From Thermococcus sp. (GTDB taxonomy: Archaea; Methanobacteriota_B; Thermococci; Thermococcales; Thermococcaceae): a stretch of DNA of 42,295 bases. Position numbers and translations under genes: made by a program. The stretch covers positions 1 through 42,295 of the forward strand of contig NZ_JALVAO010000003.1 in the NCBI RefSeq assembly GCF_027011145.1. The letters run 5' to 3'. The notes beneath the pieces are model-generated. The model was not told the DNA's origin. It saw only the letters and a program-made list of their open reading frames with translations, and searched no databases. Positions 7,894-23,258 of the stretch are shown in pieces; within the stretch, counting starts at the first letter, position 1, and each line of letters starts with the position of its first letter.

Positions 7894-7914
7894 GTTACAA
7901 ACTTCGCCTGCGCG

Positions 7915-8155
7915 AAGTTTGACCAAGGTTTGCATGTCCTTTTTGAGGAATCGTAGTTTTAAGGGGTTTTATTCTTGAGCTTGCCCCTTCTTGCCGGTTC
8001 TTCTTTAGAATAACGCCCTTCGGGCGTTGATGAGGAGTAGAACTTGTCTTGGCTTGTTTTGTTTGATGAAAAACCCGCTTTGAGTTTGAAATGTTTAGAG
8101 GACATGCAAACTTATTCTTGTTATTTTGGTGGAAGTTTATTTTTTGGTCAAACTT
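7915..8155. repeat. Nested long-range inverted repeats
   Basis: GTTTGCATGTCCT at 7928-7940 is the exact reverse complement of AGGACATGCAAAC at 8099-8111 (13 bp). Outside it, AAGTTTGACC at 7915-7924 is the exact reverse complement of GGTCAAACTT at 8146-8155 (10 bp). The pairs are correctly nested, so the RNA could fold as one closed stem around a 158-nt interior that holds the hairpin at 8012-8028. Confidence 0.7.
8012..8028. repeat. CGCCC-TT-CGGGCG hairpin, copy 1
   Basis: AACGCCCTTCGGGCGTT is a perfect hairpin with a TTCG-type tip and is followed by GATGAG. Copy 2 at 8278-8294 shares the core and the following TGAT. One stem pair differs as A-T here and G-C there. Confidence 0.7.
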
Positions 8156-19168: not shown

Positions 19169-19544
19169 GGGCATGGAGCGGGTCTGGCTCATGAAGGCCA
19201 AAGGAATGCGCGAGGTGGAGGTAGCCCAGACCCTCGGGATTTCAAGGCAGGCCGTCAACAAAGCCCTGAAAGAGGCGAGGGCAAAGCTCTTCGAGGCCTT
19301 TTTCGGCCTTGCCGAGGTTTTCTCGTGGGAGGTAGCGAGGGTAAACGTTGAGAAGGGCTTCATGGTCGCTCGGGGAAAGTGTGGCAATGAGAACGTGCGC
19401 ATCTATGCATTCTATATTCCGGGAAGGGGAGTAAGGGCGTTTTTTGAAGGGGAGTTCCCGGAGTACATTCTGAAGCACGCGGTCGAGATGGGAATAATCG
19501 AAAAGCCCGATAAAAAAGAACTCGTGAAGGCGCTTGAGGGCTAA
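19152..19544 (+). CDS. HTH DNA-binding protein with C-terminal domain
   Basis: The 130-residue protein has a sigma-region-4/LuxR-like helix-turn-helix at about 8-50 (GMERVWLMKAKGMREVEVAQ, then TLGISRQAVNKALKEARAKL). It is followed by an alpha/beta domain (VNVEKGFMVARGKCGNENVRIYAF) of unknown ligand. The layout recalls archaeal Tfx-type regulators, though I could not confirm that family. The ATG at 19152 follows GGTGG with 5-nt spacing and lies inside the end of the membrane-protein gene. Its likely target is the GTCAAC-N8-GTTGAC repeat at 18427-18446, which is inference. It ends 4 nt inside the convergent SdpI-like gene. Confidence 0.78.
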   Translation: MFKLPEGMERVWLMKAKGMREVEVAQTLGISRQAVNKALKEARAKLFEAFFGLAEVFSWEVARVNVEKGFMVARGKCGNENVRIYAFYIPGRGVRAFFEGEFPEYILKHAVEMGIIEKPDKKELVKALEG

Positions 19545-19891
19545 TAGTAGCCCTCCTCGTAGGCGCTAGTTAAAGCTATGAAGGCCGCATAGAATACCGC
19601 CCTAAGGGAAGCGAGGAGCACCGTCGTTCCAAGGCAGGCAAGCATGAGGAACATCAGCCACGTCATTGGAAGAAATGGTGAGAGGACTACAAGGAGGAGG
19701 CCCGTTATTATCGTCCCGATTCCGGAAACGCGGTTGGCCTTTCTCCTCGTGCGCCCCGAGGGGTATGTGTAGCCTATCCTGAAGCCAATTCCCGGCTCGT
19801 CCCCCGCTTTAAACGTTAGCAGGCCAGCTATTATAAGAAAGGCTCCGAGGAAGACCGCCCAGAGGATTCTGAGGAGCTCATACCCTCTCAT
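19541..19891 (-). CDS. SdpI-family membrane protein, short form
   Basis: The 116 residues have three or four membrane helices and a loop GIGFRIGYTYPSGRTRRKAN, which matches the SdpI/YhfL signature: an I-G-x-R strand followed by a basic loop. In Bacillus SdpI gives immunity to the SdpC toxin and carries signal to the repressor SdpR. The archaeal role is unknown. ATG 19891 has GGTGAAGG before it and overlaps the end of the DUF1648-type gene by 14 nt. It is the last gene of the PadR-SdpI-SdpI operon. Confidence 0.75.
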   Translation of the reverse strand: MRGYELLRILWAVFLGAFLIIAGLLTFKAGDEPGIGFRIGYTYPSGRTRRKANRVSGIGTIITGLLLVVLSPFLPMTWLMFLMLACLGTTVLLASLRAVFYAAFIALTSAYEEGYY

Positions 19892-20672
19892 TACCCTTCA
19901 CCGTGAAAATCCTGTACGTTCCTAGGAATGCAAGGGCCAGAAGGAGCCATATGGAGTAAGACACCGTTTTTAACGGGAGCTTTCCCGCATTGTACAGAAC
20001 AACCGCGGAGAACACCAGAACGGTTCCGAAACTCATAAGCGTGTTGAACTCAAACCATCCGAGGGGTGAGAACCGCTCCCTTCCAGCGGAAAAGCCCGGG
20101 TTTCTTCCGAGAACTGTCAGAAGGAAAAAGAGCCCCCATGTTAATACGGGCACTCCCAGAGCTCCCCACGTCCGTGACATGAAACCGTTCGGAGTTCCGG
20201 AGGCATTGAAATGAACCGCAATAATTTCGGGAAGTTTATCCCAGTTCAGGGCGACGATGAGGAGATATACACCCAGAAAGGCCAGCTGGAGGAAAAGGTA
20301 AGGCCTGATGTTCACAAGTATTCTTCTTCCGGCGGGTTTTTCAGGGGCTTCCATTGACAGTTCTTCCATCTCGTAGGTCTTCTTGGCAACGGCTATTGGA
20401 ACGATTAAACCTCCAATGAGCCCCGCAACCATGACGAGCATGAATGTAACCTCCGATGCGTCCAGCAGGGAGAGGCCGACCAGAATAAGGGAGAAAAATA
20501 CAAAAAACAGCCCTCCAACTGTGTTGGCCTTTTTCCATGCTTCTTTTGAGACGTAAGTGTAGCCCACCCTAACCCCGATGAAGGGGTTCTGTTTGTTCCT
20601 GACTGCGAGAGTCAGGAGGCCAGCTAAGAGAAACGTAACTGAGATGAACATTTCAAAGGCGTCCAATCCCAT
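19878..20672 (-). CDS. SdpI-like/DUF1648 membrane protein
   Basis: This 264-residue protein combines an SdpI-type N-terminal part (about 1-95; IGVRVGYTYVSKEAWKKANT) with a DUF1648-type loop LPEIIAVHFNASGTPNGF at about 155-175, and about eight membrane segments in all. The pairing SdpI plus DUF1648 is the normal layout of the larger SdpI proteins. ATG 20672 follows GGTGGGG and sits inside the end of the PadR gene, so the genes are coupled. Function in archaea is not known; immunity or envelope-stress sensing is inference. Confidence 0.78.
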   Translation of the reverse strand: MGLDAFEMFISVTFLLAGLLTLAVRNKQNPFIGVRVGYTYVSKEAWKKANTVGGLFFVFFSLILVGLSLLDASEVTFMLVMVAGLIGGLIVPIAVAKKTYEMEELSMEAPEKPAGRRILVNIRPYLFLQLAFLGVYLLIVALNWDKLPEIIAVHFNASGTPNGFMSRTWGALGVPVLTWGLFFLLTVLGRNPGFSAGRERFSPLGWFEFNTLMSFGTVLVFSAVVLYNAGKLPLKTVSYSIWLLLALAFLGTYRIFTVKGNERV

Positions 20673-21021
20673 CACCCCACCTTTCAAGGATTCTGATTAT
20701 AGTCTCAACCTCCTCTCTCAGCTCGTTCAAGATTTCCCTTCCGAGGTCGGTCAGGCGGTAGTACTTCCTCGGCCTGCCGTTGACTTCCACCCAGAAGTCC
20801 TCGACGAGCTTGTACTTCTTCAGGCTCTTGAGGATATCGTAGAGTGCCCCCTCGCTCGGGACGAGTTTGCCATCACTCACCTCGCTTAGCCTTTTCCTTA
20901 TCGCGTAGCCGTGCAGTTCACCCTCCCTCTCCAGGAGGGAGAGAACCAGGTATGAGTATAGGCCAGAGCGGAGTTCCTTTCTGAGCTTTTTCAGTGCCCT
21001 TTCCTTCGGATTCCCGAGCAA
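20653..21021 (-). CDS. PadR-family transcriptional regulator
   Basis: The 122 residues form a PadR winged helix: YLVLSLLEREGELHGYAIRK, then VPSEGALYDILKSLKKYKLV and a wing RPRKYYRLTDLGREIL, then a C-terminal dimer helix. PadR proteins repress until a ligand or stress signal binds. The start is TTG at 21021 after GGGGG. Two SdpI-like genes follow with overlaps. A possible operator, TCCAC-N11-GTGGA (21033-21053), lies between the TATA box (about 21051-21063) and the predicted start. Confidence 0.85.
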   Translation of the reverse strand: MLGNPKERALKKLRKELRSGLYSYLVLSLLEREGELHGYAIRKRLSEVSDGKLVPSEGALYDILKSLKKYKLVEDFWVEVNGRPRKYYRLTDLGREILNELREEVETIIRILERWGDGIGRL

Positions 21022-21032
21022 TCCCCCTTACC

Positions 21033-21053
21033 TCCACGTGAATACAGGGTGGA
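21033..21053. promoter_or_regulatory. Imperfect operator candidate TCCAC-N11-GTGGA before padR
   Basis: Two 5-bp arms flank the predicted transcription start of the PadR gene. The reverse-strand TATA is TTTTTATTTTCC. The arms are short, so chance is possible. Confidence 0.35.
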
Positions 21054-21064
21054 AAATAAAAACT

Positions 21065-22045
21065 TCACCACTTCACTGAAGGCTCTTCGCTCTCGGCCTT
21101 TGCCAGGGGGAGGAGTCTTGGAAGGACTGTCAATGAGATTCCAAGCATAATCCCATAGCCTGCCAAGAGGAGGAATCTCGATTGGGCCACGTGCCAGTAG
21201 GAGGCCATGCTGTCAACGACCCAGTGGACGAGAACCATTGTTAACAGGGCCTTTCTTCCCCAGCCGTTTCTGTAAGAGTACGCAAAGAGAACCGTTGTGG
21301 ACGTATGGAAGAGTAGCGCAAGGGTTCTCTCTACAAGACCCAGAAGGGAACCTCCAGCGATGGCCGAGATAATTGCCACGTAAATGGCCTCGCCGAGTCC
21401 AAAGCCAACGCCTACGTACGCCGCTTTTCCGAGGGTTTTGTCCCTGGAGAAGTAGTACTTCAGCGGTTCCTGGACGAGGCCCGCTATTAAACCGCCCCAG
21501 AGGGAGAGAACGACGGGATTGGTTATACCAAGGTAGCCCGGAATCATCTGTATCGGGGGTTGAACCACGAGTACGGGAATTATCAGGAACGCTCCGAGGA
21601 TAAGCTCCCCGGCATGGAACCTCCTTAGGTACGCCCAGATTAGGAGTAAACCCAGCAGCCCTCCGAGGAGCGGATAGACCGCTTTTCCCGGACTAAAACC
21701 CGGGGCGAAATGGAAGCCTTCGACTTTCCCATCTTTTACCGTGACGCTCACGGTGTAGTTGCCTTTCTCGGCTATAACACGGTAGTAGTAGATTTGATAT
21801 CCGCCTTTCTCCTCCGTTTTCTCGAGCTTGTAGCCCCTAATTGGCCCGTATTCCTTCACAAGTTCACTTCTGATGCCATTGAACACTTTCTCGGTAAAGA
21901 GCTTCTTCATGTCGTCCCCGAGATACGGCTCAACGAGGGAGTAGTTACCTGTTTTAAGGGCTTCCATCATTGCCTCTTGAGGCGTTAAAGCGGAAACGTA
22001 GCCCAGGAGAATCAGAAAAGCGAGAAGCGCCAGAAGGCGTTTCAT
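21065..22045 (-). CDS. YhfC/PrsW-like intramembrane protease with extracytoplasmic N-terminal domain
   Basis: This 326-residue protein starts with a signal sequence, then an exported region (about 20-120; ALKTGNYSLVEPYLGDDMKK, DUF3887-like), then about eight membrane helices. The second half shows the acidic protease pattern: Glu193 and Lys196 (QEPLKYY), Glu219 (GLGEAIY), His247, and His274 with Asp278 (VHWVVDS). This fits glutamic intramembrane proteases of the YhfC/PrsW type. The ATG at 22045 follows GGAGTGA. It lies 5 nt after the YbjQ gene in the same direction and just before the PadR-SdpI operon, so a link with those genes is plausible. Family assignment rests on motifs. Confidence 0.75.
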   Translation of the reverse strand: MKRLLALLAFLILLGYVSALTPQEAMMEALKTGNYSLVEPYLGDDMKKLFTEKVFNGIRSELVKEYGPIRGYKLEKTEEKGGYQIYYYRVIAEKGNYTVSVTVKDGKVEGFHFAPGFSPGKAVYPLLGGLLGLLLIWAYLRRFHAGELILGAFLIIPVLVVQPPIQMIPGYLGITNPVVLSLWGGLIAGLVQEPLKYYFSRDKTLGKAAYVGVGFGLGEAIYVAIISAIAGGSLLGLVERTLALLFHTSTTVLFAYSYRNGWGRKALLTMVLVHWVVDSMASYWHVAQSRFLLLAGYGIMLGISLTVLPRLLPLAKAESEEPSVKW

Positions 22046-22050
22046 ATGAA

Positions 22051-22371
22051 TCACTCCGGTTCAACTATAACGGCGGTTCCAAAGGCGTAAACTTCCGCCA
22101 TTCTCTGGCCGACGTTGGATGTCATAAAGCGCATCCCTATTACAGCGTTTGCACCCATTTCCTTGGCGTTCTCAATCATCCTCTGGAGTGCTATCTCCCT
22201 TGCCTCTGCCATCATCTCGGTGTACTCCTTAACTTCCCCGCCAACGAGGTTTCTTAAACCGGCAAGAATGTCCCGGCCGAGATGAGTTGCCATAACGACC
22301 CCTCCCCGGGCGAGCCCCTTGACCTCAACAATCCGATAGCCGGGAATTTTCTCCGTGGTAACGACAATCAT
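22051..22371 (-). CDS. YbjQ (UPF0145) family protein
   Basis: The 106 residues match the YbjQ family, with VTTEKIPGYRIVEVKGLARG at the start, the helix EMMAEAREIALQRMIENAKE and the closing MGANAVIGMRF strand. The family is described as putative heavy-metal-binding, and its true role is unknown. The ATG follows GGGGGGCTGACC. The 23-bp palindrome at 22384-22406 covers its predicted transcription start, with the TATA box CTTTTATAG at 22420-22430. Confidence 0.9.
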   Translation of the reverse strand: MIVVTTEKIPGYRIVEVKGLARGGVVMATHLGRDILAGLRNLVGGEVKEYTEMMAEAREIALQRMIENAKEMGANAVIGMRFMTSNVGQRMAEVYAFGTAVIVEPE

Positions 22372-22383
22372 GGTCAGCCCCCC

Positions 22384-22406
22384 AATACCTCGAACTTCGA
22401 GGTATT
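22384..22406. promoter_or_regulatory. 23-bp perfect palindrome at the ybjQ promoter
   Basis: Arms of 11 nt, AATACCTCGAA and TTCGAGGTATT, mirror each other around one base. They are placed at the predicted +1 of the ybjQ operon, downstream of a strong reverse-strand TATA box (CCCTTTTATAG, 22420-22430). This is the clearest operator-like site in the window. I do not match it to a known Thermococcales regulator motif. Confidence 0.75.
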
Positions 22407-22462
22407 ATACGCGAGGGAACTATAAAAGGGTTTTGCTACAAAAATGAAGAAAAACGGGTGGT

Positions 22463-23047
22463 TCAAGAAGAGTCGTAGTAGACTACGTAGGTGTCATCAT
22501 CGTCGTAGATTTCCTGTGGGGCAACTCCCCAGAGGTATTCCCAGTAGAAGCCCGGATGTGCGTCGATATCAGGGCCTCCCGCCGCCATGTATGATGCCCA
22601 CACGAGTTCGGAACAGTAATAGCTGTCTCCATAGACCTCTTTTGTCCACCATCCCCAGTCATAGGGTTTACCAAGCTGTTGAAGGGCAAATCTGACCGCT
22701 GCCTCCCTCACTTCGTTTGTTGTATCAACCCTGAGAACCGCCACCGTGTCATACCTCTTTAGGAAGTCCGATAGATAAACGGTCCTGACTTCACTTGGGT
22801 TATCCCATGCTTCGACAACCACCCAGTCCTGGGCAGAGGAGTCATAGTACGCTATTATACCAGTGTGAGTCCAGTATCCTGGAATTATAAGATCTGATAT
22901 AGGGTTGTGGCCAATTACTATATCTCCTGGGATAATACCCGTGGGATATGGGTGGGAATAGTCCTGGGACAGACTTGAAGACGCTGAAACGGGGCTCAAT
23001 GTTACAAGCAACAGCAACATTCCCAATATCGGTGCAACTTTCTTCAT
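22463..23047 (-). CDS. Secreted permuted papain-like amidase (YiiX/C92-like)
   Basis: This 194-residue protein has a hydrophobic signal sequence (about 1-25, ending near VSAS). The papain fold is permuted: His61 in GYWTHTGI precedes Cys145 in SYYCSELVW, with an acidic residue at 147. GDIVIGHNPISDLIIPG before the His is typical of YiiX/NlpC-P60 relatives that cut amide bonds in lipids or peptides. It acts outside the cell. I used ATG 23047, six nt after GGAGGTG. TATA GCTTAATAAAC lies at 23093-23103 on the reverse strand. Its substrate in an archaeon without murein is unknown. Confidence 0.8.
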   Translation of the reverse strand: MKKVAPILGMLLLLVTLSPVSASSSLSQDYSHPYPTGIIPGDIVIGHNPISDLIIPGYWTHTGIIAYYDSSAQDWVVVEAWDNPSEVRTVYLSDFLKRYDTVAVLRVDTTNEVREAAVRFALQQLGKPYDWGWWTKEVYGDSYYCSELVWASYMAAGGPDIDAHPGFYWEYLWGVAPQEIYDDDDTYVVYYDSS

Positions 23048-23258
23048 TTGATGCACCTCCAAGTAGACTTTAGTATTTTTTTGTTCAACAATGCTTAATA
23101 AACCCTTCGAATAAATTTGTGGCGTGTCTAAAAAATTTTATTTTGCAATATGTTATACAGAAAACTCTATATCCCATTTTGAGTGTTAATTAACTCCCAT
23201 TAGTAACATTTCCGATGAAAATTTAAACCCATCAAAACAGGGTTTAGTGGGTGGTTAA

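Follow-up and report, generated by a model that had tools for sequence, protein, structure and literature searches.

We found that the 23-bp perfect palindrome at positions 22384-22406 of a 42,295-nucleotide stretch of Thermococcus sp. DNA (contig NZ_JALVAO010000003.1, hereafter the window) is very probably the operator of a PadR-family repressor, whose gene stands third in the operon that begins there and which would thus repress its own transcription. The comparison of genomes shows where the site lies, how it is conserved, that it is lost together with PadR and that it is linked to PadR genes, and it is on these sequence-based results that the naming of the repressor rests.

The palindrome is not assigned to a strand and reads AATACCTCGAA-C-TTCGAGGTATT (ATACCTCGAACTTCGAGGTAT when the whole site is written for motif comparison), with the dyad at 22395. 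The original prediction described arms of 11 nt around one base and judged the element too exact for chance, and both statements hold: the palindrome lies at exactly these coordinates, it is the sole one in the window with perfect arms of at least 11 nt and a loop of 0-1 nt, a first-order Markov simulation yields 0.013 such palindromes per window, and the site is kept across the family as described below. Loss of symmetry in close relatives had been named as a ground for refutation, and this is what happens to the outer part alone. Among the genomes compared, the full 23-bp symmetry is limited to the window and its nearest relative (G002), beyond which the outer symmetry is relaxed and a 21-bp core (22385-22405 in the window) is retained. 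This core follows the pattern ATACmTCGAAnTTCGAkGyAT (typical form ATACCTCGAAGTTCGATGCAT), the elements held being TCGAA-N-TTCGA together with ATAC/GTAT or GCAT. Another perfect inverted repeat, with 10-nt arms (CAAACTTCGC/GCGAAGTTTG) and a 4-nt loop, is found at 7898-7921 in the gap after an epimerase-like gene.

The palindrome sits in a minus-strand promoter, CCCTTTTATAG...TAT-AATACCTCGAAGTTCGAGGTATT-GGGGGGCTGACC-ATG, in which the first AAT of the palindrome overlaps the TATAAT run. The TATA box of the ybjQ operon, TTTTATAG, was read from the sequence at 22420-22427 on the minus strand, and its distance to the site is nearly constant in homologues, with the first T located 20-22 nt before the site in 64 of the 72 sites for which a TATA box could be scored (76 homologous sites in total). 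As published Thermococcus maps give a spacing of about 23-27 bp between the TATA box and the start downstream of it (PMC4247193, PMC5316973), the minus-strand transcription start is predicted at about 22395-22397, that is on the dyad or within 2 nt of it. The earlier placement of the palindrome at the +1 of the ybjQ-protease unit is thus supported by the TATA spacing. A G-rich ribosome-binding-like stretch is found at 22378-22383 on the same strand (GGGGTGA in relatives). The main text of the Thermococcus start-site papers names neither the ybjQ gene nor PadR.

The palindrome straddles the predicted transcription start of a run of five minus-strand genes that overlap or are closely spaced. The run begins with ybjQ (22051-22371; PF01906, E 3e-39), followed by a gene for a membrane protein in which a domain search found DUF3887 and YhfC intramembrane metalloprotease domains (21065-22054, with the start at 22054 or 22045) and by the gene for the PadR-family winged-helix regulator that we propose as the palindrome-binding repressor (20653-21021; PF03551, E 2e-22). 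The end of padR is overlapped by a gene for an SdpI/DUF1648 membrane protein (19878-20687), and the run closes with a second, short SdpI-like membrane protein (19541-19891) whose SdpI match (E 7.5e-6) is just below the Pfam cut-off. By sequence match, the closest solved structures to the 20653-21021 protein are LmrR-type PadR proteins (E 4e-12). Furthermore, this protein combines the PF03551 domain and a length of about 110-120 aa with the HGY/YGY helix motif, the EGxLY recognition helix and the G(P/R)RKYY wing, and it carries the signature tyrosines of the PadR-s2 subfamily, whose motifs have been defined previously (PMC3506622, PMC6457526). A T-rich 43-bp stretch (GTTTTTATTTTCC) fills the gap between the protease gene and padR (21022-21064) and could be a partial terminator or a weak internal promoter, and padR may therefore be only partly under the control of the palindrome promoter. 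Upstream of the palindrome, a gene for a C92 papain-like amidase lies on the same strand (22463-23062); T-rich sequence, as is usual for archaeal terminators, comes after its end, and the palindrome therefore need not serve the amidase. The amidase (YaeF/YiiX) has a signal peptide-like start and is duplicated in G001.

Next we consider the distribution of the site in the family. When up to 2 mismatches to a degenerate pattern are allowed, 84/94 Thermococcaceae genomes carry the site in one to three copies each, while the same pattern read backwards is nearly absent from the 94 genomes. The column statistics of sites selected by a pattern are partly circular; a comparison starting from the gene, which is not, found the upstream site kept at ybjQ orthologues in almost every member of the Thermococcaceae examined. 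Where the operon has been broken up or reordered, the site stays with the first gene. Accordingly, the ybjQ and the protease-PadR promoters both carry it where, in other genera, ybjQ lies elsewhere in the genome (G086, G097, G101, G110, G117), and in G089 the order is SITE-PadR-SdpI-ybjQ-protease.

The presence of the site closely follows the presence of PadR. Counting as orthologues matches of at least 90 bits, with the next paralogues at 54 bits or below, we found a clear counterpart of the window's PadR in 81 of the 94 genomes and in none of the 10 genomes that lack the site. The match is perfect for the 74 genomes that are at least 90% complete, of which 71 have both the site and the PadR orthologue and three (G003, G019, G090) have neither (Fisher p value = 1.5e-5, a value that ignores relatedness, the losses falling in two genera). 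The site is found without a PadR match in G017, G032 and G074, all of which are incomplete bins, and in the last two it is the copy at the ABC-2 operon described below. In G003 and G019, ybjQ and the protease gene are still adjacent and PadR, SdpI and the site are all lost, with a short remnant of one arm and the ybjQ TATA box left in G003; G090 has ybjQ without the site. The losses in G003 and G019 point to PadR, and not to YbjQ or the protease, as the protein that reads the site. The original prediction of an unidentified repressor stands as far as the operator-like element is concerned, and the repressor can be given a putative name without a pull-down as the first step: the PadR encoded in the same operon.

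We also found the site beyond the Thermococcaceae. An exact-match scan of the genomes of 84,980 species (257 Gb) gave 99 loci, 21 of them in Thermococcaceae, 27 in contigs of a single planctomycete bin that hold a repeat and 51 elsewhere; the first two groups were left out of the counts of PadR adjacency. About 30 matches are expected by chance in a scan of this size, as estimated from the information content of the pattern; single bacterial matches hence prove little, and the argument rests on the adjacency to PadR. A PadR gene lies directly at the site in 20 of the 51 loci, in both archaea and bacteria, and just 22 PadR-like frames are present in all 394 kb of these loci. The PadR-adjacent sites include those of Archaeoglobales, Streptococcus suis, Clostridia, Acidobacteria, Chloroflexi, Deinococcales and proteobacteria, and in Archaeoglobaceae the order is SITE-PadR-SdpI. 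Among 30 PadR loci retrieved by family from 17 such genomes, eight have the exact site, one has a version that differs at 3 positions, and in the remainder nothing closer than 5 mismatches was found, in a scan that can miss a site overlapping the first codons or preceding an upstream gene of the operon. As the other PadR genes are mostly without it, within each genome the site goes with a particular PadR and not with PadR genes in general.

Several further loci of the scan show other arrangements. In Desulfurococcales (L129, L152, L156, L175, L219) the site lies upstream of an Rce1-like CAAX membrane protease, with a close PadR, shortly downstream, in L152 and no adjacent PadR in the other four; these four, like the lack of canonical PadR half-sites noted below, count against the PadR reading. 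In the Planctomycetales bin HKST-UBA31, about 28 copies of ATACCTCGAGGTTCGAGGTAT are dispersed over the contigs (L126, L132, L136, L137 and other JAGQPD contigs). They are nearly identical, lie in unrelated surroundings and have no PadR beside them, and they may represent a repeat or a regulon of very large size. Some bacterial PadR promoters (L142, L209) have two adjacent related palindromes, an arrangement that suggests binding by tandem dimers.

Instead of PadR, the operator could be read by another Thermococcales regulator encoded elsewhere (TrmB-like, Lrp-like or Phr-like), with PadR being a passenger. The genome of the window does encode other regulators as well as further PadR paralogues (four matches), but we consider this improbable given the perfect co-loss of the site and PadR. 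Moreover, Archaeoglobaceae and bacteria, in which other Thermococcales regulators are unlikely to be found, have the site directly before PadR, and the other PadR genes of site-bearing genomes mostly lack it. Less probable still is that the palindrome acts as RNA, forming a leader hairpin that controls the translation or termination of the ybjQ mRNA, a candidate that promoter geometry and folding speak against. While the 23-mer folds well as RNA (-11.7 kcal/mol, z -5.3), the TATA spacing predicts a +1 at the dyad, which would leave the left arm untranscribed, the predicted leaders fold no better than shuffled sequences (z 0.66 and 0.19), and there is no T-tract after the palindrome; a DNA operator would fit both the nearly constant spacing from the TATA box and the presence of the site before bacterial PadR genes. 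Finally, it is hardly conceivable that the palindrome is a product of chance or a symmetric core-promoter element (Inr/PPE): it is indeed single-copy in its own genome and overlaps the initiator position, but chance is rejected by the conservation in the family and the low per-window expectation, one to three copies per genome do not make a general promoter element, and its loss accompanied that of PadR, with ybjQ and, in G003, the TATA box left in place.

Returning to PadR as the reader, we examined the extent of the regulon that the palindrome had been suggested to define. For the genome of the window this suggestion fails, since the search for other genomic copies returned one site, with no second site even at 3 mismatches to the degenerate 21-bp pattern. 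In relatives it holds: the site lies before two operons where ybjQ is unlinked, and several Thermococcus genomes also have it ahead of an operon for an ABC-2 exporter. This second site is present in a subset of the genus (e.g. G012, G013, G026, G031, G034, G064, G069, G072, G084), where it precedes an ABC-2 permease/ATPase operon (PF12679) by about 160 bp; it comes with an ATG and with unchanged TATA spacing and ribosome-binding stretch, and the operon's own older TATA-like box lies between the site and the operon. In the corresponding promoter loci (L082, L083, L085, L088, L089, L091, L099, L100) the site is near 2002-2022. The short leader that follows the second site is similar to the beginning of the ybjQ reading frame (MSEVLITV against MDEFIITT), which suggests that the ABC-2 operon acquired a copy of the ybjQ promoter, a likely captured promoter. 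The nearest relatives of the ABC-2 permease in the genome of the window (47% and 44% identity) are without the site, because this genome has no second site.

Taken together with the promoter geometry, the binding, repression and release that we infer would proceed as follows. A PadR dimer would bind the 21-bp dyad ATACCTCGAA-N-TTCGAGGTAT, which is centred on the predicted start, and once bound would cover about -10 to +10 and keep TFB and RNA polymerase from initiating. The ybjQ-protease-padR-sdpI-sdpI operon would in this way be negatively autoregulated, and it would be released when some signal displaces PadR. By analogy with Bacillus SdpR/SdpI, the presence of SdpI proteins and of an intramembrane protease in the operon suggests that the inducer may be a membrane-active toxin or envelope stress.

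Such autorepression is known for the LmrR/PadR subfamily 2, whose dimers recognize a palindromic site at the promoter that drives their own gene or operon, with LmrR also acting at transporter genes (PMC3506622, PMC6457526, PMC5428041). Lactococcus LmrR, B. cereus bcPadR1/2 and Listeria LftR are, like the PadR of the window, small winged-helix proteins (about 110-120 aa) that carry the signature tyrosines, and here as well the palindrome overlaps the promoter of a PadR-encoding operon. However, the known operators of this group have ATGT-N8/10-ACAT half-sites (PMC3506622, PMC5428041), which are absent from the palindrome; the form found here is ATAC(C/A)TCGAA-N-TTCGA(T/G)G(T/C)AT, centred on the predicted archaeal +1, and the co-encoded genes are those for YbjQ, the intramembrane protease and SdpI and not LmrCD. 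A few bacterial loci combine an identical operator with PadR and then a HAAS-like membrane protein, as in bacterial PadR-HAAS modules (L174, with a HAAS match at E 2.5e-4, below the Pfam cut-off), whereas the bacterial target genes are unrelated to the archaeal operon. The TGM motif of TrmBL1 (TATCAC-N5-GTGATA) and the SurR motif (GTTn3AAC) also occur at Thermococcales promoters; they belong to different regulators and, as originally stated, have no sequence resemblance to the palindrome.

In the SdpR-SdpI system of Bacillus, the gene for an autorepressor lies next to that for the SdpI membrane protein in one operon, and SdpI, which senses the toxin, both protects the cell and removes the repressor by sequestering it at the membrane. 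The padR gene of the window likewise adjoins an sdpI gene, but the repressor is a PadR protein and not ArsR-like as SdpR is; no Sdp toxin gene was seen at the window locus.

PadR autorepressors are thus a known kind, and the ATAC-TCGA operator form may deserve a class of its own; no earlier description of this form with PadR was found among the matches listed from a search of open-licence papers. We see about even chances for the wider proposal that this form is a distinct PadR operator class of Archaea and Bacteria, that it serves in Thermococcales as a PadR-SdpI membrane-defence switch covering the +1, and that the complete promoter was copied before an ABC-2 exporter in part of the genus.

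The function of PadR in archaea was stated as unknown in a study of Pyrococcus TrmBL1 (PMC4706686). Here, a single, near-universal PadR of the Thermococcaceae gains an operator, an operon and a small regulon, all of them predicted. That archaea and bacteria have this operator in common suggests that a repressor of bacterial type can function, together with its site, with either transcription machinery. If binding is confirmed, the promoter would also be a naturally repressible one for Thermococcus genetics.
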